Shown: positions 3,688 to 24,634 of the stretch, in pieces | Position numbering within the stretch: position 1 is the first letter of the stretch | Layout: each line of letters begins with the position of its first letter | Assembly: GCA_021604005.1 (NCBI GenBank) | Contig: BQIV01000032.1 | Coordinates: 1 to 58,002, forward strand | Source of the DNA: Nitrospirales bacterium | GTDB lineage: Bacteria; Nitrospirota; Nitrospiria; Nitrospirales; UBA8639 | Length of the DNA stretch: 58,002 nt | Reading direction: 5' to 3' | The notes under the pieces: model-generated | The model's input: only the letters and a program-made list of their open reading frames with translations | The model's database searches: none | What the model was told of the DNA's origin: nothing | Program-made: the position numbers and the translations under genes

Positions 3688-3724
3688 TTATCACTTTGGA
3701 TACAAATCGTATCTTTTTCGATAA
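3688..3724 (+). promoter_or_regulatory. Phased GTATC/GATAC half-site array A (putative activator-binding site)
   Basis: Four pentamers start at 3688 (TTATC), 3699 (GATAC), 3709 (GTATC) and 3720 (GATAA), with spacers of 6, 5 and 6 bases. The array is a dyad of two inverted pairs, all on one face of the helix (steps 11, 10, 11). It also forms an 11-bp perfect inverted repeat, TTATCGAAAAA (3673-3683) against TTTTTCGATAA (3714-3724). Arrays with the same spacing are at 7947-7983 and 20167-20204. It stands about 100 bp upstream of a -24/-12 type promoter, where a sigma54 enhancer-binding protein would sit. Between 3320 and 3687 I see nothing else. Confidence 0.65.
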
Positions 3725-3821: not shown

Positions 3822-3837
3822 CGGAACAACACTTGCG
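3822..3837 (+). promoter_or_regulatory. Putative sigma54 (-24/-12) promoter of the 125-aa gene
   Basis: CGGAACAACACTTGCG has GG at 3823-3824 and GC at 3835-3836, exactly 12 bp apart as sigma54 requires, with a perfect TTGC. The -24 half deviates from TGGCAC. It is 98 bp downstream of array A and 57 bp upstream of the GTG start at 3895. Confidence 0.5.
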
Positions 3838-3894: not shown

Positions 3895-4272
3895 GTGGCT
3901 AGAAAAAAGAGGAACGGAAGTAGTCGGCAAGAAGACGATTTTGGCCCAAGCTATCATTATGTCATGCCGCAAGAAGCGTGGCTTGTCGGAATCGGTTATC
4001 GGTTTATAACAGGAAAATTGCACGACTCAACTTATGGGATAGAAAGTAAGTCTGATACGAAGACAGATTCAGGCCAAATAGCGGAATCCGAAGCGAAAAA
4101 TGAGCCCAAAGATTCAGACTTGAAATTGCACATATGCGGCGACGAGTTTGTAACGGTAAAATACAATAGACTCACAACCGTGCTAATTGGGGGTCCTGAA
4201 AAAGGTCATATAGTCACAGTCACGACATACGCCCATAACAATACGGCACTCTGCATTGAACGTTTATTATGA
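3895..4272 (+). CDS. Unknown 125-aa protein under a putative sigma54 promoter
   Basis: I do not recognise a family. The start is a GTG at 3895, preceded by a strong AAGGAGG (3881-3887) with a 7-base spacer. The N-terminus is basic (MARKKRNGSSRQEDD), with no signal peptide or membrane segment. A Ser/Asp/Lys-rich, probably disordered stretch lies at about residues 45-73, followed by a compact beta-rich C-terminus (LHICGDEFVTVKYNRLTTVLIGG, with a Cys near residue 81). The gene is single-standing, with array A and a -24/-12 site in front and a haemagglutinin gene 185 bp behind, so it may be expressed together with that exoprotein system. The protein is likely cytoplasmic; its role is unknown. Confidence 0.65.
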   Translation: MARKKRNGSSRQEDDFGPSYHYVMPQEAWLVGIGYRFITGKLHDSTYGIESKSDTKTDSGQIAESEAKNEPKDSDLKLHICGDEFVTVKYNRLTTVLIGGPEKGHIVTVTTYAHNNTALCIERLL

Positions 4273-7946: not shown

Positions 7947-7983
7947 GTATCCGGAAAGATACAAATGGTATCCAAACAGATAC
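7947..7983 (+). promoter_or_regulatory. Phased GTATC/GATAC half-site array B (best copy)
   Basis: Perfect pentamers GTATC (7947), GATAC (7958), GTATC (7968) and GATAC (7979), with spacers 6-5-6, the same geometry as array A and steps of 11, 10 and 11 bp. All four halves match exactly. It is 91 bp upstream of an excellent -24/-12 promoter, so an oligomeric activator binding here could loop to sigma54 polymerase. Confidence 0.75.
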
Positions 7984-8073: not shown

Positions 8074-8089
8074 TGGCATCGGCCTTGCT
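8074..8089 (+). promoter_or_regulatory. Putative sigma54 promoter of haemagglutinin 2
   Basis: TGGCATCGGCCTTGCT matches the sigma54 consensus TGGCACG-N4-TTGCW closely, with GG (8075-8076) and GC (8087-8088) 12 bp apart. Transcription would start near 8100, giving a leader of about 64 bases before the GTG at 8164. Confidence 0.7.
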
Positions 8090-8163: not shown

Positions 8164-11001
8164 GTGACCACGACTCTCAACTATTCAGCGTGTCCGCGCT
8201 ATTGTTTGTCTTTCGCCATGCTTGCAATTTCTTTGATGCCCGTTGCAACAACGTCAAACGCTCATGCCCAAGCACAAGTCGGTACGAATATTCAGCCCTC
8301 TGGACTCAACACGATGGTGTTGCCCAACGGCAATGTCATAGAAATCAAGGGCGGCACACGTCCGAATGACGGTCGGAATTTGTTCCATAGTTTCAGCGAA
8401 TTTAGCGTCGGCGCGGACCATATCGCCCACTTCCTGAATGACAGCCAGCTGCCCACGGAGAATGTCCTAAGCCGCGTCACGGGCAATAATGCTTCTCACA
8501 TCATGGGAACTATCAAAACGACGGACGCTGTCCAAGGCTTCGGTGACGCGAATTTCTATCTCATGAATCCCCAAGGAATCATCTTCGGACCAAAAGCCAC
8601 ACTGGACATTGGTGGATCATTTTACGCCACCACCGCGAACAATATTGAGCTAGCCGATGGGGAATTTTTTAACGCCGTTCCCAACCAAGAAGTCGACTCC
8701 TTACTCACCTCTGCACCTCCAGAAGCGTTTGGGTTCTTAGGAAATAGCCCGCCAGGTCCAATCACAATTGAGGAAAGCGTCCTTTCAGTCCCAGCAGGTG
8801 AAACTCTTTCATTCGTAGCAGGTGATATTAGTATTACGGGCTCTCCGCCGTTTTTTCCTGGCTTTCCTCCTCTCCCCGGCGAAGAAACAATAAGAACTCC
8901 ATTTGGACAGATCCATATGGTCAGCCTATCAAATGAAAGCCAAGTCACAAACATTTCCACTTCTTCTGGTGAGGTAACAGCTGGACAAGCAAATGGCACC
9001 ATTATTATTTCAAATGCAACCTTATCCACATTTGGATCAGGTATTCCTCCACTTAATACGAAGAATCAAGAATCGGTGATCGCAATTAAAGGCGGTAGAC
9101 TCAAAGCGATGGACTCGTTTTTCTTTACAAGCGTTTCAGACACGAATCAAGACGCTGGAAACTTAAATATAGACATGGCAACTAGCTTTTCACTTACTAA
9201 CTCCCAAGTTACTGCAGACTCTAGAGACGCAGGGAGAGAAGGAAATATCGCACTACATGGAGGAGGAACCATATCTTTAACTAATTCACTACTGTCATCC
9301 GCCAATTCGATGTTAAACAATCCTCCTAGCAATAAAGGTATTCAAAACAATAGAGGTGGCATTATTCTTAATGCTTCTGCAGTCGAGTTAACTGATCACA
9401 GCGAATTGACTACTAGAAGTATTGGAGGCCAACAAGGAAATGACATTCACATAACTGGAGATAATATTCTAATTGATAATAATTCAATAGTATCGACTGG
9501 CACATTTGGCCTTTCACCATCGGGAGATATCACAATTGAAGCACAAGAAACCTTTAAACTTTCAGGAGCATCAACCCTTGAGACTAATACACCCGGTCAA
9601 AAAAATGCGGGAAATATTAATATTAAGAGTCCAGTCTTAGAAGTTTTAGAAGGAGCAAGCATCCAAAGCGTCACCGCTGGCATTGGTGATGCTGGAAGAA
9701 TTTCCTTGAATGGGCAGGATAGAGTCATTATTTCAGGATCTTCTAATAATACTCCCATGTCATTTCCTAGCAGAGTCAGTACTCAAAGCATTGATTTTAC
9801 TTCTGGTAAAGGCGGCAATATCCTAATCGAGGCAGGGGATTTTCAATTAACAAAAGGCGGGATTGTAGATAGTAGCACTGCAAGCCAAAGCCAAGGTGGG
9901 ATCGTTTTTATTGACGCAAATTCCATATCTATTTCTAGTAATGGAACTTCAGTTAACTCGGAAACATCAGGGTCAGGAACAGGCGGAACGGTCAGACTAG
10001 ACGCAACCCAACGAATAGTTGTCACAGGTGGGGCATCAATATCTACTACTAGTTCCCAAGCCGGAAACGCTGGAAACATCATATTAAGCGCAAAACACAT
10101 CGTTATGGATAGGAGAGCACAAATAACGAGCAATAGTATTAGTCAGAAATCAAATGCAGGTGGGGGAGGTACAATCGAAGTCATCGCGACCAATTCCATT
10201 GACCTAACAGCAAGCAAGGTTTCAACATCTGTAGAAGACGGAAGCAAATCTGGGGGTAACATTACGTTATCAGCTGAGCAAAATGTTCTCCTAAGTGGTG
10301 ATACGACCATTACTGCAGAGAGCCTCGGTTTGGGTAATGCTGGAGCTATTCTCATTGAAGCCAAGAATATCGTTCAGGTAGATAACAGTAGGGTCACAAC
10401 CCAAGCCACAAAGGCCTCTGGAGGTGATATTAGTTTAGAGGCAACCGATATGATTCGTCTGAAAGACAGCACCATTGAGAGTTCAGTGCAGGGGAATCAA
10501 ACGTCTGCTGGAGGTGACATTAGTCTGGACCCACAGTTTGTTGTTCTTCAAAATAGCAGGATCTTAGCCACGGCAACCTCAGGGTTTGGGGGTAACATAG
10601 AAATCGTGGGTGACGTGGTGTTGGCCGATCCGTTCAGCCTTGCCCCTGCGAATCTTTCGGCTTCATCTGAAGCTGGTCCTCAATTTAGCGGAAACGTAGA
10701 CATCCGAGCACCTATCCAAAATCTCAGCGAAACCATTGCTCCCTTGCCGGAAGCTATTTTAAAAGTATCAGCTCTGTTCGCAGCCCGTTGTGCGGCACAG
10801 AAAGGCGGAACTTTCAGTACTTTTGTGCAAAGTGCACACGCATTAAAACCTTCATTATTTCTTAAATTTCTGACTAGCCCGATACTTGAGCAAAACTTTT
10901 CAAAAATAAAGTTCAGTGATTCTCATTCGACTATGGCAATTTTAAAATTTTCGAATATTCCAAGCATTGAATGTGGAGAGTTAGACTTCATAACGTCGTG
11001 A
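8164..11001 (+). CDS. Filamentous-haemagglutinin (TpsA-like) exoprotein 2
   Basis: 945 aa from a GTG preceded by AAAGGAAG (8148-8155). A signal peptide ends near SNAHAQA. The TPS domain shows NLFHSFSEF, NVLSRVTG and NFYLMNPQGIIFGP. Repeated beta-helix rungs with GNI/GDI turns fill residues 280-850. The C-terminal block VDIRAPIQNL-SETIAPLPE-LKVSALFAAxCAAQKGG repeats that of the first haemagglutinin, although the two differ widely elsewhere, so this block is probably a common secretion, folding or anchoring module. The expected TpsB transporter is absent from the window. Array B and a -24/-12 promoter precede it. The middle of the gene is rich in A/T compared with its 5' end, as is common in such repeat regions. 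Confidence 0.9.
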   Translation: MTTTLNYSACPRYCLSFAMLAISLMPVATTSNAHAQAQVGTNIQPSGLNTMVLPNGNVIEIKGGTRPNDGRNLFHSFSEFSVGADHIAHFLNDSQLPTENVLSRVTGNNASHIMGTIKTTDAVQGFGDANFYLMNPQGIIFGPKATLDIGGSFYATTANNIELADGEFFNAVPNQEVDSLLTSAPPEAFGFLGNSPPGPITIEESVLSVPAGETLSFVAGDISITGSPPFFPGFPPLPGEETIRTPFGQIHMVSLSNESQVTNISTSSGEVTAGQANGTIIISNATLSTFGSGIPPLNTKNQESVIAIKGGRLKAMDSFFFTSVSDTNQDAGNLNIDMATSFSLTNSQVTADSRDAGREGNIALHGGGTISLTNSLLSSANSMLNNPPSNKGIQNNRGGIILNASAVELTDHSELTTRSIGGQQGNDIHITGDNILIDNNSIVSTGTFGLSPSGDITIEAQETFKLSGASTLETNTPGQKNAGNINIKSPVLEVLEGASIQSVTAGIGDAGRISLNGQDRVIISGSSNNTPMSFPSRVSTQSIDFTSGKGGNILIEAGDFQLTKGGIVDSSTASQSQGGIVFIDANSISISSNGTSVNSETSGSGTGGTVRLDATQRIVVTGGASISTTSSQAGNAGNIILSAKHIVMDRRAQITSNSISQKSNAGGGGTIEVIATNSIDLTASKVSTSVEDGSKSGGNITLSAEQNVLLSGDTTITAESLGLGNAGAILIEAKNIVQVDNSRVTTQATKASGGDISLEATDMIRLKDSTIESSVQGNQTSAGGDISLDPQFVVLQNSRILATATSGFGGNIEIVGDVVLADPFSLAPANLSASSEAGPQFSGNVDIRAPIQNLSETIAPLPEAILKVSALFAARCAAQKGGTFSTFVQSAHALKPSLFLKFLTSPILEQNFSKIKFSDSHSTMAILKFSNIPSIECGELDFITS

Positions 11002-12331: not shown

Positions 12332-12592
12332 ATGGGGGTTCGCACTGTTCGACTCGATGACAAAACAGAAAAAGTTCTCCAAGAAGTTGTCCGTAAAACA
12401 GGACTCTCGATATCTGACACGTTCAAAAAGGGAATCTTCGCTCTTCGCGATGCCACCTCGGATCAACCGCCCCAATCGCCTTTCGACGTTTATCAAAAAT
12501 TAGACCTCGGACCTGGAGGGTATTCAACCACTCCCTCGACACAAACACGGCTAGGAGTACAAAACGCTATCAAACGGAAGCACAAGCGATGA
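12332..12592 (+). CDS. Ribbon-helix-helix antitoxin of a VapBC-like pair
   Basis: 86 aa. GVRTVRLDDKTEKVLQEVVR followed by KTGLSISDTFKKGI is a ribbon-helix-helix DNA-binding domain (beta strand then two helices), which dimerises to bind the palindrome at its own promoter. The C-terminal part (LDLGPGGYS, then basic KRKHKR) would contact the toxin. AAGGAGG at 12321-12327 is followed by two ATG codons, at 12329 and 12332; the second gives the better spacing. Its stop overlaps the toxin ATG by four bases (ATGA), so the two are translationally coupled. Confidence 0.75.
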   Translation: MGVRTVRLDDKTEKVLQEVVRKTGLSISDTFKKGIFALRDATSDQPPQSPFDVYQKLDLGPGGYSTTPSTQTRLGVQNAIKRKHKR

Positions 12593-13002
12593 TCATCGTC
12601 GACACGGGTCCGTTCGTGGCGTTATTCGACCCCAATGATGCGCTTCATGACCATTGTCGAACCATCCTCAAAACCATCAAAGAATCATTCATTACCACGG
12701 TCCCCATTTTAACAGAAGCCTTTCACCTTATCGCGCCAGGCAGTGTTGGAGCAGACCGTTTGAGAGATTTTATTGCGAAGAGGGGAGTAGAGATATGGTT
12801 CATGGATGATGGAGCCATAGAACGAGCATTTCAATTAATGGAACGATATGCTGACCATCCAATGGATCTCGCCGATGCTTCCCTTATTGTGGCTGGGGAA
12901 CGACTGAAAACGAACAAGGTCTTTACCATCGATCGAGACGATTTTGAAACCTACCGGATTCAACGCGGGCATCGTCAAACCAAAGTCATCATCATTGGGT
13001 AA
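12589..13002 (+). CDS. PIN-domain toxin (VapC family ribonuclease)
   Basis: 137 aa with the complete PIN signature: an Asp in MIIVDTGPFVALFD, Glu in ILTEAFH, Asp in MDLADASLI and Asp in FTIDRDDF, which coordinate Mg2+ or Mn2+ for RNA cleavage. Family members cut tRNA or rRNA when freed from the antitoxin. Length is normal for the family and nothing is disrupted. It overlaps the antitoxin by four bases. The transposase that follows begins only 38 bp after the stop, so this pair sits among mobile-element debris and was probably acquired with it or retained as an addiction module. Confidence 0.85.
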   Translation: MIIVDTGPFVALFDPNDALHDHCRTILKTIKESFITTVPILTEAFHLIAPGSVGADRLRDFIAKRGVEIWFMDDGAIERAFQLMERYADHPMDLADASLIVAGERLKTNKVFTIDRDDFETYRIQRGHRQTKVIIIG

Positions 13003-14174: not shown

Positions 14175-15296
14175 TTAAAACGTTTCCATGCCCGTTGGTT
14201 CAGTACGTGGAATACCGCGTTGTTTGAGGCGGAGGTCGGAAATGGCTTTCATCTCGTCCCGACGCGCACGGTTTATCCCCCCAAGCGGTTTGTGAACAGT
14301 CAGGCCGTGCCAGGGATTAAAGGAGAGGTCTTCGCAGAACAGTTTTTGCGCATCGGAGGTGAACGTTTGCCGGGGAACGTCGATCGTAGCGATTTTGATA
14401 AACGGAGATTCGTTTTCATCCCAGATGGCTAAGGTATCCTCTATGGGCATCGTCTCCGGATCTTTCTGGACTTGAATCAAAAATTCCAAACACCAATCGC
14501 CTTGCGCCAAGTCCTTGGCCATTGCTTCTTCAAGATAATCATCAGTGGGGTTTTCTGGCAGCGGACTTTGCCGTTCGATACAGGACTTCACTTTATATTT
14601 GACCGCAACCGCACTTCCGTCCGGATTGGACTGGCCGAGCTGAAACGGTGCAACACTGAACCAGGTGATCTCCAACGGATTAGCAAATTGTTGCCGGCCT
14701 TTGAGTGTATTCTTTAAGGCTCGTGGCCGTTTCGCAAAATATCCGGCTGTTGCGAACGTTCCGCCATTAAATTCTCCATCGAAGAACTCGAAGAAATCTT
14801 TCGGAGTCCCGGCAAAAAATCCGGGAAAGGCAATAAAGAGAAAGTCCTGCGTATGTTGTTCATCACCGGGGATAGGAAGCCGCTCGCCTTCAACGCCGAA
14901 CAATTTAATCGCCAACCCCCGGAAGTCTTTGTCTTTGTCCGGGGTCACCTCCGGAGCCGAATTGGAAAACCGCATCCATGCTGGATAGAACCGGCCCTTC
15001 TGAAACACGCCGACCTGATACTGTTCCGGAATATCTTCGTCGACGATAAACCGTGCTTTCACACAGCCATTGGACTTGGGATGCGTGTCGCGTAAGAACT
15101 CTTGGCCTTCATACTGTTTGGCAAGCTGAGTCGAGAGTAACGTTTTAATATTTTCAACCGTCTGTCGCTCATCATCCGGAACCTGCTCCTGCCCGAGTTT
15201 CAACGCCGGACTATGCGTACAGCCGATACCCACCATGAATACCGTCGAAATACCGAATAACAGTAATCGAGTCATGCAAAAAGACCATCTCATCAT
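14175..15296 (-). CDS. Catalase-family haem lipoprotein
   Basis: 373 aa; an internal ATG at 15275 is also possible, since the signal MTRLLLFGISTVFMVGIGC with its lipobox begins there. The mature part follows the divergent catalase family: a His in the RDTHPKSNGCVKARF segment at the place of the distal His, WMRFSNSAPEVTPDKDKDFRG corresponding to the catalase RFST...RDPRGFA region, then FLFIAFPGFF. It lacks the large C-terminal domain of true catalases. The family includes peroxide- and lipid-peroxide-converting haem proteins; the exact reaction is unknown. It is the last gene of a minus-strand set behind the di-haem cytochrome and the GMC oxidoreductase, and may remove peroxide made there. Confidence 0.75.
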   Translation of the reverse strand: MMRWSFCMTRLLLFGISTVFMVGIGCTHSPALKLGQEQVPDDERQTVENIKTLLSTQLAKQYEGQEFLRDTHPKSNGCVKARFIVDEDIPEQYQVGVFQKGRFYPAWMRFSNSAPEVTPDKDKDFRGLAIKLFGVEGERLPIPGDEQHTQDFLFIAFPGFFAGTPKDFFEFFDGEFNGGTFATAGYFAKRPRALKNTLKGRQQFANPLEITWFSVAPFQLGQSNPDGSAVAVKYKVKSCIERQSPLPENPTDDYLEEAMAKDLAQGDWCLEFLIQVQKDPETMPIEDTLAIWDENESPFIKIATIDVPRQTFTSDAQKLFCEDLSFNPWHGLTVHKPLGGINRARRDEMKAISDLRLKQRGIPRTEPTGMETF

Positions 15297-15403: not shown

Positions 15404-17431
15404 TTACGCCGTTGCACCGGCATCGGCAAGAATCACGTCGGCTGCCTTCTCGCTGATCATGTATACCGAGGTCACGATAAAAAACCCTGGGATTTTGGGA
15501 AATACGGAAGCATCAACAACTCGTAAATTTTTGGTACCATAAACCCGGAAGTTTCCATCAACGACAGCCAGAGAGTCATCTTTCGGCCCCATCTTACAGG
15601 TACACGATGCGTGATGTCCCCACGCATTGTCTTTGACGAATTGTTGGAGTTGCTCTTTCGTATCGTACGCCTCGCCCGGGACTAACTCTTGTTCAACAAC
15701 GCCATCGGCCCGTTTCATAATGCGGCGTACGGTTTGAATTCCATCGACGACAGAGTCTAAGTCTTCTTGCCATCCCGCCGTTCCTTCTTCAAAGTACCGG
15801 AAATTGATTTGCGGTGTGTCTCTGGGATCGCTGGACCGCAACGTCACCGTGCCGCCCCGGTTCTGGGTATGGGCTTTCAAAATGGCCCAGGTGAAGAAAT
15901 TTTTCCCACGCGTGACATCCTGTGAGTAACCTGGATAATAACCACGAAAATACCCCACCAGTCCAAAAATATACAGATCAGGGTCGGGACGATTGGGTTT
16001 CGATCGTTTAATGAGCGAGAGCACTGCTCCATTCGTCGTATATACGCCCTTGCCTTGGAGCCACTCGCGAAATACCGGATCGGAAGTTCCATCTGGCCCC
16101 GGTGACTCGAACGTCGCACCTTCGAGTATGGTAAAATCATTTTTCATTTCGCTCACGACGCCGACTTCATACCGGTCTTGTAAATTTTGACCCACTCCCG
16201 GTAAATCCACCTGCACGTCGATCCTGTGTTTTTCCAATTCCGCTTTGGGGCCGATACCCGACAGCATGAGCATTTGCGGCGTATTAAACGCTCCGCCGGA
16301 GAGAATGACTTCTCGACTAAATCGCACGGTCTTCCGTTCGCCGGCTTGCGGCATCGGATTCACCAGCGGGTCAGCCCGGTACAAATGTTGTCCGTCCAGG
16401 TATTCGACGGCCACGGCCTTCTTGCTTCCATCGGCATCGTCTTCGAAGATTACTCTCGTCACCAATGCGCCCGTTTTGACCGTGAGGTTATTGGAACAGG
16501 CCTCCTGCACGCGTCGTATGTATTCCCGTGTTCCGACCCGCTTACCTTCGTTAACGGACAGTGGGGTAAAGATGAGCCCTTCCGGGCTGATTCCCTTTTC
16601 CCGCCAACGCCAGTCGTTAGGGTCTAAATGTCCTTTTAATTTCAGCTTCACTCGGCTGATGAATCCATCAACCTTAAAAATCGACTCGCGAAGTGTCGCC
16701 TTAATCAATTTTTTGAGAGGAGTATCCCCAACAACCAATTTCGGGTTCGCAATCGTCGTCGTCAACCACCCGCTGAACCCATGACGGGTCGGGTTCCCGC
16801 CCGTCAGACCGGGAGCCTTCACATACTGACACCGTTCAAGCCGTTCGAAGTATTGACGCATATTGTCATCCGACCAAGAGACATCGCCCGTAAGCTGCGC
16901 CAGCTCATCCCAATCCCGTTTATGCGGATAGACCGTAATCATGGCATGATGCGCCGTACATCCTCCAAGCGCACCCGCACGCGGATACAGCACGCCATCT
17001 TGTTCTTTGACGTATTTGTCATCACGAACTTGCTTGCCCTCAGACTCATAATGCCGCACGAAAAAATTCCAAGATTGCGAGGGCTCTTCCGACGCCTTGG
17101 CATGAAATGCAGGCACTTGATAGTTGAATGGTTCCTCGTCCCCTCCCGCTTCAAGCAACAACACACGATGGCCAGCCTTGGCCAGATTAGCCGCCAATGG
17201 TCCTCCACCAGCCCCGGACCCCACTACCACATACTCATAGGATTCAGCATCCGCTTCGGCCGTAGCACAGGTGATGGCAGGCAGCGAATCAGTGCCCCCC
17301 TTCTTAAACAGCGATGCGCAGCCGCTCAGCAACGCAGTCAATCCCGCAACAGATGAGGCAGCGATTCGAGAGAACCGACGGCGGGTGACTTCCGGCGCGG
17401 GTGTATTGGGTTTTTGTAATGGTTCACTCAT
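15404..17431 (-). CDS. GMC-family FAD oxidoreductase with Tat-type lipoprotein signal
   Basis: 675 aa. The N-terminus has TRRRFSRIAASSVAGLTALLSGC: a twin-arginine motif (residues 16-21) and a lipobox Cys38, so the folded flavoprotein should be exported and anchored. VVVGSGAGGGPLAANLAKAG with Glu94 is the FAD-binding fold; GGAFNTPQMLMLSGIG is the second GMC signature; WGHHASCTCKMG near the C-terminus carries the catalytic His pair. Relatives oxidise alcohols, sterols or sugars (choline dehydrogenase and cholesterol oxidase types), and exported ones often pass electrons to a cytochrome c. The neighbouring gene encodes a di-haem cytochrome, a plausible acceptor. The substrate cannot be told from sequence. 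The gap to the cytochrome gene (118 bp) holds a dispersed repeat. Confidence 0.85.
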   Translation of the reverse strand: MSEPLQKPNTPAPEVTRRRFSRIAASSVAGLTALLSGCASLFKKGGTDSLPAITCATAEADAESYEYVVVGSGAGGGPLAANLAKAGHRVLLLEAGGDEEPFNYQVPAFHAKASEEPSQSWNFFVRHYESEGKQVRDDKYVKEQDGVLYPRAGALGGCTAHHAMITVYPHKRDWDELAQLTGDVSWSDDNMRQYFERLERCQYVKAPGLTGGNPTRHGFSGWLTTTIANPKLVVGDTPLKKLIKATLRESIFKVDGFISRVKLKLKGHLDPNDWRWREKGISPEGLIFTPLSVNEGKRVGTREYIRRVQEACSNNLTVKTGALVTRVIFEDDADGSKKAVAVEYLDGQHLYRADPLVNPMPQAGERKTVRFSREVILSGGAFNTPQMLMLSGIGPKAELEKHRIDVQVDLPGVGQNLQDRYEVGVVSEMKNDFTILEGATFESPGPDGTSDPVFREWLQGKGVYTTNGAVLSLIKRSKPNRPDPDLYIFGLVGYFRGYYPGYSQDVTRGKNFFTWAILKAHTQNRGGTVTLRSSDPRDTPQINFRYFEEGTAGWQEDLDSVVDGIQTVRRIMKRADGVVEQELVPGEAYDTKEQLQQFVKDNAWGHHASCTCKMGPKDDSLAVVDGNFRVYGTKNLRVVDASVFPKIPGFFIVTSVYMISEKAADVILADAGATA

Positions 17432-17549: not shown

Positions 17550-19835
17550 TTACAATGTTTTGAGAAATTCAATGAGCGCCCGTTTGTCGCTGTCACCAAG
17601 TTGGCTTCCATACTCATGACCGCGATCGACCACAAAATCGGTACATTTATTCACCTTAAGCAGATCAGGCACCAATTCTTTCAACAAGGCCGTACTCTGT
17701 GTCTCATTCAGGTTTTCCGTTTTGATGCGTTTGAGCCCAGCCTTTACTTTGAGTAGAACTTTGACGAGACGGGCAAGGCGAACGGGATCTTTAAAGGAGA
17801 GTTCGTTGTTCAGATTGGCCAATAAGTTAATTGGGGTTCCCTTGGGAATCGGCCCAATGCGTAATTCCTTCTCCCCTTTTTTCAGGAGCTTAGCCTTGAG
17901 AACGCCTGGAAGATATTCTTGATTGATCTTTAAGTAACTGACTTTAGTGGTTTTATAAATTGGCGGGCACCAGGGAAGGCCCCATGTTTCTTGGCAGCGC
18001 GTCTCGACACGCTTTTCCGGCCAGAGCAACTTTTCTACACCGTCTTGAAACGCGTCCATACGTCCCGCAACCGATGGATCATTCGTAAACTTTCCAAGCG
18101 CATTGTTATGGAAATACGGCGCCGTACTCCACATACTGACGAGTGAAGGCGAACGATAGTACCCCCGGCCTCCTCCCGGCATTTCGTAGGTCGACGGCTC
18201 ACCGGTCAAGGGGTGGTGTACTTTAATCGGACGCACAGCAGGAAGTGTCTTATACGTTTCCGATGTAAAATTATCCCAAATATGTCCTCTCAGCCCATTC
18301 GTCGCCAACGCTGCACAGGCATTCGTCTTGAGGTCGGCAACCGAATAGCGGTGTTCATTTGATAAATAATTATCGTCGAGAAAGTCCGGCTGCATGATCA
18401 TCTCCCGCATCTGTTTCTTGAAGTCTTCCGATTCCACCCATTTGTTATAGAAGGAATCAAATTTTGTGACAGTATCATGCGGTTCGGGCTGTTTACTGGA
18501 ATGACAGCCTGCACAATTATCTGCAAACACTACTTTTCCTCGATTGAGTACCGACTCATCATTTGTTACATAGGCTTGACCACCAGGGGCATCTTGTAAA
18601 TGATGCCCCCCTGCCGCCTTCAGGAAAAATTTAGCCAAGTTTTCAACACGCTGTTCCGTGGCTTGCCAGTAGACAGAATTGTCTTTTGCCGAGGCGATAT
18701 CCATGGGAAACTGTTTTTTACCGCCAACGAGGGGTTTGAAATGCTGGAGCCATTCTTCATGATATTCACCGATGTTAATATACACACGGCTGAGCGCCCC
18801 AAGTATTCCAACCGAGTCGGCGCCATCTTTGAGAATATGGGGGACCACCATGCGAGGTTGCGTGCCCGGCACAGCGAGCGCGCCTCCGGAAATGTCTTCT
18901 TCCTCTCCTGTTTTCAATCGGGCGCCAACCTCGTAAATCGCATTCATCGTTCGCGGGTTATTGATATTGTCGGTCGCGATGATCGAGGTATCCAAAGCCC
19001 CAGGAGGTGAACTGTTGAATAACTGCCATACAAAGTTTTCTTCATCCGGATGGGCGATAAAGATCCTGCCGATCCAGAAATATTGCGCGCCGACGTTTGT
19101 GGAAAGATTTTTCCACTCAGGGTTTTCAGGATCAGCCGGCGGATGAAGCGGATGGGGACCGACATGACAAAAGGCACACGACATGCCCACACGATAGGGA
19201 CGTTCTAATTCTTTGTCCAAGTAGTAGTCAGGATCCGTGTAAAAGCGTTCGGCATCCCAATAGGCCACAGCATCCTGATCATACTCAGGACTGGATTCAT
19301 CGAACTTGGGATTGAGGAACAGACGTAACCCCACGATTCCTGAAGATTTTCCGTACACCACCGGATCGATGCCTTCCGGCTCCGGCTCTATTCGCTCGTC
19401 AAGATATAAGCCATATTTTGGATCAGGGCCCGTAGCCTTTTTAAATCCAGGCTCATTCATCAGCCCTAAATAATCAAAACGATTATCCCGGCTGTAATAA
19501 TATGTTTTTCCGTTTTTATCAGGCTTGGGATACGAAGACAGCGTTTTCAGAAAGTCCAGCGTGCCAAAACTATTCTTCGCCATGTAGTCCCAAAAGGCCT
19601 GATTGCCGCCTGTCCACAGCATCCACGTGTTTCGGCCCTTGACCTCATCTGGCGTCAGCGCAATCCCGCCATCCATATCACGAAATACATCCACGGCAGT
19701 TTCCGGAAAATCGGCCGCCGTCTTACCCTGACGTTTCGCCTCATCTTGTGCGGCAGTTCGAAACAGACTGCACCCCGACACGAATAACAGAGAAGGAACA
19801 AGACAGGACACCATGAATACTGTGAACTTTTTCAT
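17550..19835 (-). CDS. Large di-haem cytochrome c lipoprotein (RoxA-like / cytochrome c peroxidase superfamily)
   Basis: 761 aa from the ATG at 19835, chosen for AAGGAGG 10 bases ahead; the frame opens upstream at 19880. A lipoprotein signal ends at FVSGC (Cys22). Two haem-c motifs are present, CAFCH (220-224) and CAGCH (441-445), about 220 residues apart. Total length and haem spacing resemble RoxA/RoxB-type rubber oxygenases and related di-haem proteins more than the 350-aa cytochrome c peroxidases. RNTWMLWTGGNQAFWD, GLRLFLNPKF and RPYRVGMSC are conserved-looking blocks. Periplasmic, membrane-anchored. It may be an oxygenase or an electron carrier for the downstream GMC enzyme. Array C and a -24/-12 promoter precede it. 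Confidence 0.7.
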   Translation of the reverse strand: MKKFTVFMVSCLVPSLLFVSGCSLFRTAAQDEAKRQGKTAADFPETAVDVFRDMDGGIALTPDEVKGRNTWMLWTGGNQAFWDYMAKNSFGTLDFLKTLSSYPKPDKNGKTYYYSRDNRFDYLGLMNEPGFKKATGPDPKYGLYLDERIEPEPEGIDPVVYGKSSGIVGLRLFLNPKFDESSPEYDQDAVAYWDAERFYTDPDYYLDKELERPYRVGMSCAFCHVGPHPLHPPADPENPEWKNLSTNVGAQYFWIGRIFIAHPDEENFVWQLFNSSPPGALDTSIIATDNINNPRTMNAIYEVGARLKTGEEEDISGGALAVPGTQPRMVVPHILKDGADSVGILGALSRVYINIGEYHEEWLQHFKPLVGGKKQFPMDIASAKDNSVYWQATEQRVENLAKFFLKAAGGHHLQDAPGGQAYVTNDESVLNRGKVVFADNCAGCHSSKQPEPHDTVTKFDSFYNKWVESEDFKKQMREMIMQPDFLDDNYLSNEHRYSVADLKTNACAALATNGLRGHIWDNFTSETYKTLPAVRPIKVHHPLTGEPSTYEMPGGGRGYYRSPSLVSMWSTAPYFHNNALGKFTNDPSVAGRMDAFQDGVEKLLWPEKRVETRCQETWGLPWCPPIYKTTKVSYLKINQEYLPGVLKAKLLKKGEKELRIGPIPKGTPINLLANLNNELSFKDPVRLARLVKVLLKVKAGLKRIKTENLNETQSTALLKELVPDLLKVNKCTDFVVDRGHEYGSQLGDSDKRALIEFLKTL

Positions 19836-19972
19836 ATCGACCATGCCTCCTTGCAAGCTTCCATTGAACAGATACATCACGATGAACGTCTATCATTCGT
19901 TTTTCGTATGCTCAAGAAACAAAGCGTCATTGGGATCATTCTCGGAATTGTCATAAAATTGTTCCAGAAATT

Positions 19973-19988
19973 TGCAGATTACATGCCA
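19973..19988 (-). promoter_or_regulatory. Putative sigma54 promoter of the cytochrome operon
   Basis: On the minus strand TGGCATGTAATCTGCA has GG and GC 12 bp apart and differs from TGGCACG-N4-TTGCW mainly at one base in each half. It lies 138 bp before the cytochrome ATG and 179 bp downstream of array C. The rest of 19836-20244 shows no gene. Confidence 0.6.
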
Positions 19989-20166
19989 TCAATACACGTA
20001 TGGCGGCGTTCAATAACTCACCCAATTTACTTCGTAAAAATTATGGAATGTATTGCACATTGCGTTCAGTATTCGTGCATGCACGTATACTCGAATGCAT
20101 ACCATGGTAGGTGTTTATTAGTAATTTGTCCAGAGGAAAAGACCGCAGCATTTCAGAGTCCACACT

Positions 20167-20204
20167 GTATTAAAATAGATACACCATTGTATCCTTCCGG
20201 ATAA
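20167..20204 (-). promoter_or_regulatory. Phased GTATC/GATAC half-site array C
   Basis: Pentamers at 20167 (GTATT), 20178 (GATAC), 20189 (GTATC) and 20200 (GATAA), spacers 6-6-6, steps 11-11-11. It has the same alternating order as arrays A and B, with one extra base in the centre. It is placed upstream of the di-haem cytochrome operon on the minus strand. Confidence 0.65.
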
Positions 20205-20244: not shown

Positions 20245-21453
20245 TTACGTGAGCCGGCGCAACTCTTCTAAGGTATCTGGAATGTGAAATGTAATCTCTC
20301 CATTAAATTCCCGATGAATCAGGCTTTGAAAAAAGACATGGCTGATGTTTTCATGAAGATGTTGAGAGGAATCAACACGGTCCACCACATTCCACAAGCG
20401 GCTCCATATGGACGGAAAGGTCGTGACCAACCACTTTGTCAGATAGAGAAAACGAACCGGCTTGATCCCAATCCTTTCACACCCCGCACGTCCCATGAGT
20501 TCTTCCATGTAGATCCGCGGGAGAATTTGTATGCCAAGCCGTCGTAACGGGGTTTGTGGCAAGAGATCATTCAACATGCGAAGGTTGACCGTCGCTAATT
20601 CCACCCCTTCGGGATTCTGGCCAGCCTCCACATAATGCCTCCGCATATAGGACGCATAAAACTCCTGGGCTTCCGTAAGATTTTTAGGGACATACTCGCT
20701 ACTATCCGGTTGTCCTTCGGGATGAATTCCCATCATTTGAGCAACGATACGCCACAGGTAATACCAATCTTCTGCTTGCTCAGCCGATAGGCCAATACGT
20801 AATTGCTTGAGTCCCGAAATCACCAAATAGGAAAATCCCATAACCGTTCCCAATTGATCTTCAAGATTTACCGGCACCCCATAGCGAGCTTCATAGTGCG
20901 GAAGATGTTCTCGGACAATCTTGCGAACGCCCGCATGCAGTAAACGTATTTTGGGGACGGTAATGAGGGCTTTGCCCGACGGGTCAAACCCGCCGACAGC
21001 CGAGACATTGATGAGCATTTGCAACACCCCGAGTATTCGTCGATAGGGACGTTGCGAAAGGTTATTCGATAGGTTCAACACGGTGGAAAGATTGGGAGCC
21101 GCATACCCTTCAGGAAGGCTTTTCGTTAAAAGTACTAATGCACACGGAAAGGCATGCGTCATAAACACACGTTGGCCACGCTTGATTCGCTCACGATCAA
21201 TGGGATGCGCTTCAAGCAAGGGCAGGTTCATTGTCGAAGTCAGAAACGCGTGGAGCGGTTCAGGTATTTCGTTCGAAAGAACAGCCGTGTTCGTATTGAG
21301 CCGTTGAAACAGATCGCTGAAATCTTCTTTCCTCAACACGTCGTGAAGTTGAGTTAAGCATCGATCGGCTGCAGCATCTCCCTGAAGTCGTATACTGTCT
21401 AAAAAAAGATCATTCGACCACTTGCTTCCACCGCTGTCGTCATTGATAGCCAT
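20245..21453 (-). CDS. MpaB/Lcp-type (DUF2236) oxygenase-like protein
   Basis: About 402 aa from the ATG at 21453 (MAINDD); earlier starts reach 21516. The core RPYRRILGVLQMLINVSAVG, then KIRLLHAGVRK (His173) and YGVPVNLEDQLGTVMGFSYL, follows the DUF2236 family, which includes latex-clearing protein Lcp, a haem-b polyisoprene dioxygenase, and MpaB prenyl-chain oxygenases. The His in the LHAxVR motif is the family's haem ligand position. No signal peptide is visible, unlike secreted Lcp, so it may work in the cytoplasm or at the membrane. It is followed by the cytochrome-GMC-catalase set on the same strand, separated by array C. The substrate is unknown. Confidence 0.7.
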   Translation of the reverse strand: MAINDDSGGSKWSNDLFLDSIRLQGDAAADRCLTQLHDVLRKEDFSDLFQRLNTNTAVLSNEIPEPLHAFLTSTMNLPLLEAHPIDRERIKRGQRVFMTHAFPCALVLLTKSLPEGYAAPNLSTVLNLSNNLSQRPYRRILGVLQMLINVSAVGGFDPSGKALITVPKIRLLHAGVRKIVREHLPHYEARYGVPVNLEDQLGTVMGFSYLVISGLKQLRIGLSAEQAEDWYYLWRIVAQMMGIHPEGQPDSSEYVPKNLTEAQEFYASYMRRHYVEAGQNPEGVELATVNLRMLNDLLPQTPLRRLGIQILPRIYMEELMGRAGCERIGIKPVRFLYLTKWLVTTFPSIWSRLWNVVDRVDSSQHLHENISHVFFQSLIHREFNGEITFHIPDTLEELRRLT

Positions 21454-21620
21454 ATCGATGATTTTCCATGATCTATCGTAAGATGCGTAGAACAGCATAC
21501 ACATATTCCACAACATGAAAAAGACGCATCACACGAAAAATTTCATGCAAGGACAATCAATGGAACATTCTGATAGTCGGTTCTGGGTGAGCAAGCAAAG
21601 AGCGGGGAGGGGCAGTATTT

Positions 21621-22797: not shown

Positions 22798-23107
22798 AGG
22801 ATTTCTCTGCAACGAGACAATCGGAACAGCTTCCCAATACCCTGATGAAGAACGGGTAATCGTGTTCATGAAAGGCTGTTGCAGGGAAAAGACAGGCTCT
22901 GCATCTGAAGACACTCTGACTTCATGGTAGACAGTCACAACAACACGTCACGCCTAACATACGGAAATAGCAGTATTTTCATAAGGTGTCACCAGGGGAG
23001 TCAGGTGTGTAAACATTGTAGACATTCTGAAATAATTCCACTATATTTTCATCAGCAACGTATTCAACGGAATGTGCCTACGTCATATTCCGTTTTCTGG
23101 ACCTTCC

Positions 23108-24634
23108 ATGACACAGGCACCACAAAGACTTGGGCCATCGATTGACCCACTCCAATCCATTCTGCCTGTCTGTCGAAAAATGAGAGCGGAGCGTAATCTC
23201 CCCGCATTGCTCCGACTCATTGCCAAAGAAGCGAAGCATCACCTGTCAGCAAATGACGCCAGCCTCCTCCTCTTCGATCAGGAACGCTGCGAACTCTGGT
23301 CGTACATCACATTGGACGGTGAAATTATCCGTTTCGATGCGCGGCTGGGGATTGCCGGAGCAGCAGCACTCACTGGAGAACTGCTGAACATTACCGATGT
23401 TCAACAAGATTCCCGGTTTTACAAAGATATTGACGCCCACTCCAAAAAACGAACGCGCAACCTCCTCGCAATACCGCTTCAAACGCACAATCATGAAGTA
23501 CTCGGGGTGTTAGAGGTGATGAACAAAAAACAGGGCACCTTCACGCAGCAGGATGAAGTGCTTGGACGCGCGCTCGCGGAACAAGCGGCACTGAGCATTG
23601 AATCAACGCAAACGGTCCAAGAACTCACACAACAACAACAGCAACTCATCACGGAAAACGCACAACTTCGAAAAGAAATTGAAGGACGCTTTGCCACGCA
23701 ACACTTCATCGGCGTCAGTCCCCATATGCAGGGCATCGTCCGGCTCATTGATCAAATCCGAGATAGTTCGGTTGATGTGCTCATCACGGGAGAAAGCGGG
23801 ACAGGAAAAGAGCTGGTCGCCAAAGCTATTCACTACAATAGCCTACGCGCCCACAAGCCGTTCATTGCCTTAAATTGTGCCGCCATTCCGGAACACCTCG
23901 TGGAAAGCGAACTCCTGGGCATCCAACGAGGCGTGGCTACGGGAGTAGAATCGCGGATTGGGAAATTTGAACAGGCCAATGGCGGGACGCTCTTTCTTGA
24001 TGAAATTGGCGATCTTGGCATCAACGCCCAAGCTAAAATTTTACGGGTACTGCAAGAACGCAGCTATCAGCCGGTCGGAGGACGAACCACTCGTACACTT
24101 GATGTCAGGATACTGGCCGCGACCAATAAAAAACTTGATGAACTCATCGCGCAGAGCCTCTTTCGAGAGGATCTCTATTATCGTTTAAAAGTTATCCACA
24201 TCCCGACCCCCCCGCTTCGGGAGGTTCCGGAAGATATACCACTGCTTGCCGCACATTTCTTAACGCAACAATCACGTCAGGCGAAGAAAGAGGAGAAACA
24301 TCTAAGCCCCGACGCCCAACGTGCATTGCAAGCGTATCATTGGCCTGGAAATATTCGAGAACTTGAAAATGAAATGAAACGCATTGTGGCGACCGTGAGA
24401 CGCGTGGAGATTTTGGAACACGACCTGGATGTACTTATTCGCAACCAGAAAAAGCCTATGCTCAATACAGCGACACAGAGATCTCGCACGCTTCCCGAGG
24501 CCGTTGCCCAATTAGAAGAACAGATGATACGAGAAGCCTTACTCTCCTGCCGATCCAATCAGGTGCAGACTGCGAAAATGCTTGGCCTGAGCCGCCAGGG
24601 TCTCATCAAAAAAATGAATCGATTGGGGATCTAG
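23108..24634 (+). CDS. GAF-AAA+-Fis transcriptional activator of the sigma54 type, with GVATGV in place of GAFTGA
   Basis: 508 aa from the ATG at 23108 (the frame opens at 23072). A GAF sensor domain covers residues 25-165, then a Gln-rich coiled coil (170-192), an AAA+ domain with Walker A GESGTGKE (228-235), Walker [12 protein letters not shown] (292-302) and the arginine-finger region FREDLYYRL, and finally a Fis-type helix-turn-helix ([20 protein letters not shown]). Enhancer-binding proteins use loop GAFTGA to touch sigma54; here it is GVATGV (275-280), while everything else is intact. GAF domains bind small ligands, so the signal may be a metabolite. The gene is divergent from DUF928 and is the best candidate for the factor reading the GTATC/GATAC arrays. 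Confidence 0.85.

Follow-up and report, generated by a model that had tools for sequence, protein, structure and literature searches.

Upstream of the gene for a RoxA/MauG-type di-haem cytochrome in a Nitrospirales genome, two tandem palindromes of the form GTATC-N6-GATAC (array C) are followed by a -24/-12 element, and such tandem pairing, unlike single palindromes, exceeds chance. The paired sites and -24/-12 element that the initial annotation had placed upstream of the di-haem cytochrome operon are real, as confirmed by pair counts over the whole genome and by conservation in four species. Array C is very probably the upstream activating site (UAS) of a sigma54-dependent promoter. The whole explanation, in which UAS and promoter belong to a shared regulon run by a QseF/GlrR-like regulator encoded at C21, is also probable, if held with less assurance.

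Nitrospirales is the order of the nitrite-oxidising Nitrospira; most of its members are uncultured and their gene regulation is little charted. A recognisable promoter code together with a candidate regulator would allow co-switched envelope and oxidative genes to be predicted from sequence alone, and with a candidate at hand, binding by a global regulator could be tested directly. Such a code would also place the genes of a RoxA-like cytochrome, a GMC oxidoreductase and a catalase-like protein under the same control as surface adhesins.

Array C and the upstream region of the cytochrome gene

The features discussed are listed in Table 1, in which the window is the whole stretch of DNA analysed (58,002 nucleotides). 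Read along the minus strand, the Lcp-type gene is followed by array C, a conserved block, the -24/-12 element TGGCATGTAATCTGCA, a ribosome binding site and the ATG of the cytochrome gene. The predicted open reading frame of the cytochrome opens at 19880, whereas the conserved ribosome binding site and ATG place the start at 19835 instead. Array C departs from the GTATC-N6-GATAC pattern at 2 of the 20 specified bases, and the -24/-12 element lies 178 bp downstream of it and 137 bp before the ATG. The earlier estimate of about 180 bp, and the remark that arrays A and B lie closer to their promoters, agree with this distance and with the 97 and 90 bp found, respectively, at those two arrays. The claim that the array runs in the same direction does not apply to the array itself: its palindromes are symmetric and thus carry no direction, which is set only by the side that holds the -24/-12 element.

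Table 1 Positions of the features discussed (in the window, unless a genome, contig or locus handle precedes the coordinates)
Feature	Position	Strand	Remarks
Array A	3688..3724	none	two palindromes 21 bp apart, 2 mismatches
Weak -24/-12 candidate CGGAACAACACTTGCG	3822..3837	plus	candidate for array A, 97 bp away
125-aa protein	3895..4272	plus	downstream of array A; no family match
Array B	7947..7983	none	two perfect palindromes 21 bp apart
-24/-12 element TGGCATCGGCCTTGCT	8074..8089	plus	for array B, 90 bp away
TPS-domain filamentous haemagglutinin-like protein	8164..11001	plus	downstream of array B
Catalase-like protein	14175..15296	minus	presumed operon gene; Pfam match below gathering score
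GMC oxidoreductase	15404..17431	minus	presumed operon gene; also downstream of the cytochrome in 5 of 6 named loci (L062-L067)
RoxA/MauG-type di-haem cytochrome, 761 aa	17550..19835	minus	ATG at 19835; CxxCH twice, PYFHNNALG
Ribosome binding site AGGAGG	19846..19851	minus	strong; enclosing 16-mer 19858-19843 identical at 15 of 16 bases in four species
-24/-12 element TGGCATGTAATCTGCA	19988-19973	minus	putative sigma54-type promoter; GG-N10-GC kept in four species
Conserved block	20104..20139	minus	holds sigma70-like TGGACA-N17-TACCAT (20132-20104); strongly conserved in four species
Array C	20204-20167	minus	TTATCCGGAAGGATAC-AATGGT-GTATCTATTTTAATAC; two tandem 16-bp palindromes GTATC-N6-GATAC, 22 bp apart
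Proximal palindrome of array C, GTATCTATTTTAATAC	20167..20182	minus	kept before orthologues in three other species
Distal palindrome of array C, TTATCCGGAAGGATAC	20189..20204	minus	kept before orthologues in three other species
MPAB/Lcp-type protein	20245-21516	minus	weak sequence match to rubber oxygenase structures 5o1l and 5o1m
GAF-AAA-HTH protein of EBP type	23072-24634	plus	loop GVATGV
QseF/GlrR-like response regulator	G000:C21:75557-76876		best activator candidate; G000 is the genome of the window
109-aa CxxC protein	L057:7093-7419		counterparts L114, L124, L136 and L154; no Pfam match; most conserved target seen

Array and -24/-12 element, in the same relative order, precede the orthologous cytochrome gene in three other species, namely G002 (90% identity), G001 and G004 (82–84%), with array-promoter distances of 178 bp in the window, 196 bp in G002, 109 bp in G001 and 120 bp in G004. 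The greater distance remarked on earlier for array C is thus explained by a longer spacer in two close species. In the alignment of the four species (the fifth genome of the genus, G003, was left out, its gene lying at a contig end), the best 16-base stretches were identical at 15 bases for the ribosome binding site, 13 for the array, 13 for the block and 11 for the -24/-12 element, compared with an intergenic mean of 3.6 of 16. Moreover, a distant di-haem homologue from another family (L074 in G046; 28% identity) has an array pair with TGGCAAGGTGCTTGCT 73 bp on.

In the proposed mechanism, two dimers of an enhancer-binding protein (EBP) would occupy the two tandem palindromes of array C and, through looping of the DNA, cause sigma54-RNA polymerase to open at the -24/-12 element; the transcript would cover the gene of the RoxA-like cytochrome and probably those of the GMC oxidoreductase and the catalase-like protein. 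The presence of rpoN in the genome is implied by the many EBPs with GAFTGA loops. Two features count against a sigma54 model: the 178 bp between array C and promoter are outside the usual 60–150 bp, and the -12 of this promoter reads CTGCA, not the usual TTGCT.

Between array and -24/-12 element, the conserved block carries a sigma70-like element, T[AG]GACA-N17-TA[CT]CAT, which keeps its exact 17-bp spacing in four species at 24–36 bp from the array and which, among the loci scanned, was found only upstream of the cytochrome gene. A second promoter is thus possible; the block could represent either a sigma70 promoter or a site bound by another protein. A sigma70 start near the cytochrome gene had been named by the initial annotation as grounds against its reading; a conserved sigma70-like element is indeed present, but it is farther from the gene than the -24/-12 element. 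Array C might also mainly serve the sigma70 promoter, with a bound protein activating or repressing it from 34 bp upstream and the -24/-12 element being secondary. The exact spacing and the absence of the element from all other arrays scanned favour such an arrangement, yet its -10, TACCAT, is poor, the spacer bases are conserved too (resembling a protein site more than a promoter spacer), a promoter scan returned no excess of sigma70-like sites (2 versus 1.9 expected), and the -24/-12 element is likewise conserved and fits the regulon-wide pattern; we consider it unlikely. Both promoters may be true at the cytochrome gene, given that at glmY a weak sigma70 promoter overlaps the sigma54 promoter, according to the accessible part of PMC6075780.

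Tandem pairs and their coupling to -24/-12 elements

Over the whole 4.7 Mb genome, 23 tandem pairs were found at up to three mismatches (16 at a gap of 5 bp and 7 at a gap of 6 bp), while the reversed control pattern gave 0 pairs at either gap. Pairs with the 5-bp gap were present in all five genomes of the genus, at 11–18 each (up to three mismatches; control 0), and 37 of the 59 relatives scanned harboured at least one pair at up to two mismatches, with the control at 0 in every one; among these 59, no pair was found in any of the 12 genomes of one genus (g4). Single palindromes in the window numbered 25 versus a shuffle mean of 17.8, which is not significant (25 was reached by 7 of 100 shuffles), and unpaired ones were rejected as a regulon marker, being too common for use. 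Matches to the -24/-12 pattern in the window (up to two mismatches) numbered 26 versus 29.5 expected, and TGGCATGTAATCTGCA alone is unremarkable. That array and -24/-12 element are unrelated short matches would agree with each half alone being near chance level within the window, but this reading, to which we give practically no credence, is already refuted by the zero counts of the pair controls and by the conservation in four species.

Coupling of the arrays to -24/-12 elements was assessed on 79 distinct arrays from the five genomes of the genus, 55 of which have such an element at 60–150 bp. An element was scored as GG-N10-GC plus at least five of seven further consensus matches; this scoring is simple and was made for this analysis, and the argument rests on the contrast with controls, which gave a mean of 2.0 matches (maximum 6; 200 draws) at random places in the same loci and a mean of 2.0 (maximum 5; 100 shuffles) in dinucleotide shuffles of the same flanks. 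Distances from array to element peak near 110 bp, and 16 of the 79 arrays are without a -24/-12 match of even moderate score at 60–150 bp; array C is not among the 55, as its 178 bp falls outside this range. For G001–G004, 56 of the 57 5-bp-gap arrays listed were used (one on G003:C557 was left out); one 6-bp-gap array of G004 was added because it precedes the cytochrome gene, and one identical array was dropped, reducing 80 to 79. Of 32 arrays from other genera, half (16) carry an element of this kind within 50–150 bp.

Judged by their sequence, arrays A, B and C are one and the same cis-element, and a single factor for all three appears well supported at the DNA level. The initial annotation had linked the oxidative gene set with the haemagglutinin genes under one factor: this stands insofar as the three arrays are the same element, coupled to -24/-12 elements genome-wide, but the link is not specific to this set, as the 23 arrays precede genes for a wide variety of proteins, most of them secreted or of the envelope. 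Besides array C, the same factor would control arrays A and B and some 20 other promoters, forming one regulon mostly of envelope and secreted proteins. Genes downstream of arrays in the genome include those for a TPS haemagglutinin, lipoprotein-like proteins, an alpha/beta hydrolase, an SCP2 protein, a DUF2278 protein, a haem-oxygenase-like protein, a Tle1-like hydrolase and two EBPs; several arrays are without a good -24/-12 element or without a clear gene, and array genes such as those at L052, L056 and L059 encode proteins for which no family match was found. The 109-aa protein, with two CxxC pairs, is preceded by an array and a -24/-12 element at 93–97 bp in all five genomes of the genus.

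Two EBP genes have arrays upstream (L043:5398-6804 and L051:2811-4262), and EBP genes so preceded suggest a sigma54 cascade. The array-preceded EBPs C9:81397-82806 and C6:32307-33761 were rejected as master regulator and are read as targets, because their orthologues are restricted while all five genomes have arrays: close orthologues of C9 were found only in G003 and G004 (with a weaker 48% match in G002), and C6 has only 42–43% matches within the genus.

The candidate activator

The factor would most likely be the QseF/GlrR-like response regulator at C21, whose input would come from a QseE-like kinase and its periplasmic partner; as the identity of the regulator, we give this protein roughly an even chance. 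Its top NCBIfam match is GlrR at 478.9 bits, under the equivalog cut-off of 763, and it is thus called GlrR-like rather than filed as GlrR; among the regulators scanned, only this protein has GlrR as its best NCBIfam match. In G000, a HAMP histidine kinase, a 266-aa periplasmic-type protein (for which no family match was found), the C21 regulator and then an exosortase are encoded in this order. Other genomes contributed 11 further loci, all 11 of which keep the order of kinase, 266-aa protein and regulator; the exosortase was present at 2 of these 11. The gene of the candidate itself has no array nearby.

The occurrence of EBPs was profiled with their C-termini across 22 genomes, selected among the 59 relatives for unambiguous array counts: 14 array-positive genomes with at least two 5-bp-gap pairs and 8 array-negative ones with none. 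The profile covered 8 of about 29 EBPs in the genome, which have reciprocal best matches in G001, mostly in G018 and G053, and none in G019 and G033; only part of the EBPs of G018 was taken in for this selection, and the motif filter lost a few. Presence was judged by visual inspection, with a minimum of 83 bits for C21 and of about 45–60 bits for the other regulators, whose lower cut-offs make the comparison favour them. The HTH of C21 was present in 13 of the 14 array-positive and 1 of the 8 array-negative genomes (P value=0.0004; Fisher test), the exceptions being G006, which has two pairs without the HTH, and G042, which has the HTH without a 5-bp-gap pair (G052, of the same genus, has two pairs). 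Furthermore, G010 has pairs, and of the eight EBP candidates only the C21 type is present there.

Another EBP of the genome might be the activator instead, for example the FlbD-like L180, L005 or L175. The HTH of L180 almost matches that of C21 in its distribution, being present in 12 of the 14 array-positive genomes and in 1 of the 8 array-negative ones, and L005 and L180 likewise have nearly invariant recognition helices. However, all three are absent from the array-bearing G010, L180 and L005 from G039 too, L005 is present in 4 of the 8 array-negative genomes, and a best match to GlrR is confined to the C21 protein among the regulators scanned against NCBIfam; activation by one of these is thought possible but rather unlikely.

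The GAF-type EBP encoded in the window is a most improbable activator of arrays A–C, although its gene adjoins the cytochrome region and is syntenic with it in G001. A GAFTGA loop is required for sigma54 contact; in this protein it reads GVATGV, likewise in the G001 orthologue, so that the protein probably cannot engage or activate sigma54, and no array lies near its gene. PrsR (C21:69642-70970), which together with PrsK is encoded in the same gene cluster as the C21 candidate, was rejected as activator, as its published motif differs from the array; in family f3, which bears arrays, no match to its HTH exceeded 60 bits.

RhpR is, to our knowledge, neither an EBP nor a sigma54 activator. A response regulator of this kind could nevertheless bind the palindromes and modulate the promoters, since the inverted repeat bound by RhpR of Pseudomonas syringae is given as the identical GTATC-N6-GATAC in the accessible part of PMC4191427; the inner palindrome being also this published site, an identical motif is not enough to name the protein. 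Yet the RhpR sites in that part of the paper are listed singly, many near or within genes. They are not known to be coupled to -24/-12 elements, whereas those found here are tandem pairs with palindromes 21–22 bp apart and tied to -24/-12 elements, so that an EBP would be needed anyway. We regard a RhpR-like binder as improbable.

With the C21 protein as regulator, the reading may be extended to the order: a Nitrospirales QseEGF-like three-component system, encoded next to the exosortase and PrsK/PrsR genes, might have become a broad regulator acting via tandem TGTATC-N6-GATACA sites and sigma54 on at least 20 promoters per genome, among them those of adhesins, lipoproteins, secreted proteins and RoxA-like oxidative enzymes, and in some species on further EBP genes in a two-tier sigma54 cascade. 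We advance this tentatively, at somewhat less than an even chance.

Known systems and neighbouring genes

The UAS of QseF is published as TGT-N12-ACA (PMC6075780) and also given as TGTC-N10-GACA (PMC8745638) in the accessible parts of these papers, and TGTATC-N6-GATACA is of equal length and ends. The array consensus is (T)GTATC-N6-GATAC(A), whose GT-N12-AC core fits QseF and whose outer T/A, needed to complete TGT-N12-ACA, is present in only 48% of half-sites. As far as the same parts of the two papers go (PMC6075780, PMC8745638), QseF/GlrR of enterobacteria (glmY, rpoE P2) is alike in its several UAS before a sigma54 promoter, its envelope theme, its gene order of kinase, periplasmic partner and regulator, and an extra weak sigma70 promoter. 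The system described here differs in its strict GTATC-N6-GATAC core in tandem pairs, in its 23 sites in the genome compared with few, and in a candidate locus beside an exosortase. The PrsR/PEP-CTERM box (Haft 2006; accessible part of PMC1569441) is alike in combining an activator site and a -24/-12 element upstream of exported proteins, but its motif 1 ends in TTTACA, unlike the array consensus, and the targets identified here, of which full C-termini were checked for only some, are not mainly PEP-CTERM proteins.

Literature searches, in which subscription papers were incompletely covered and other wording is possible, returned no description of the array regulon in Nitrospirales; the palindrome, searched written four ways, was found for RhpR alone, and the terms sought were absent from PMC10579370, a paper on marine Nitrospirales. 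The regulon is thus judged to be new, of a familiar kind, with a regulator that is a good, if unproven, candidate.

The cytochrome bears haem sites at residues 220 (CAFCH) and 441 (CAGCH), in agreement with its earlier di-haem label, and a MauG-type motif, PYFHNNALG. It matches RoxA-like and di-haem peroxidase families weakly, and no solved structure matched it by sequence at an E value of 0.01. With the rubber oxygenases RoxA, RoxB and RoxC it shares two c-type haem sites, the MauG-type H motif and an Lcp-type neighbour, but its family scores (24 bits for RoxC and 22 bits for RoxB) are far below the cut-off of 900, and rubber as substrate is not implied. The Lcp-type gene is upstream of array C and outside the control of the cytochrome promoter. 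Judged by this protein, the closest named relative is Nitrospirales bacterium NPIRA01 (90%), which places the window in the Nitrospirales; in NPIRA01 a catalase-like protein is next after the GMC oxidoreductase (L063); the cytochrome-GMC neighbourhood was also found in MAGs of Acidobacteria and Deltaproteobacteria, at about 50% identity.

Elsewhere in the window, a good -24/-12 match without a GTATC array, TGGCATTAACATTGCT (22797-22782, minus strand), precedes a DUF928 gene, and a short direct repeat, TGTAAACAT/TGTAGACAT, at 23006-23026 further upstream of this gene is possibly the site of another activator. On the plus strand, 12332-13002 holds a VapBC-like toxin-antitoxin gene pair, as judged by eye, and GGGGTCAGGCATG occurs three times in intergenic DNA around short genes, at about 11900, 12038 and 13040.
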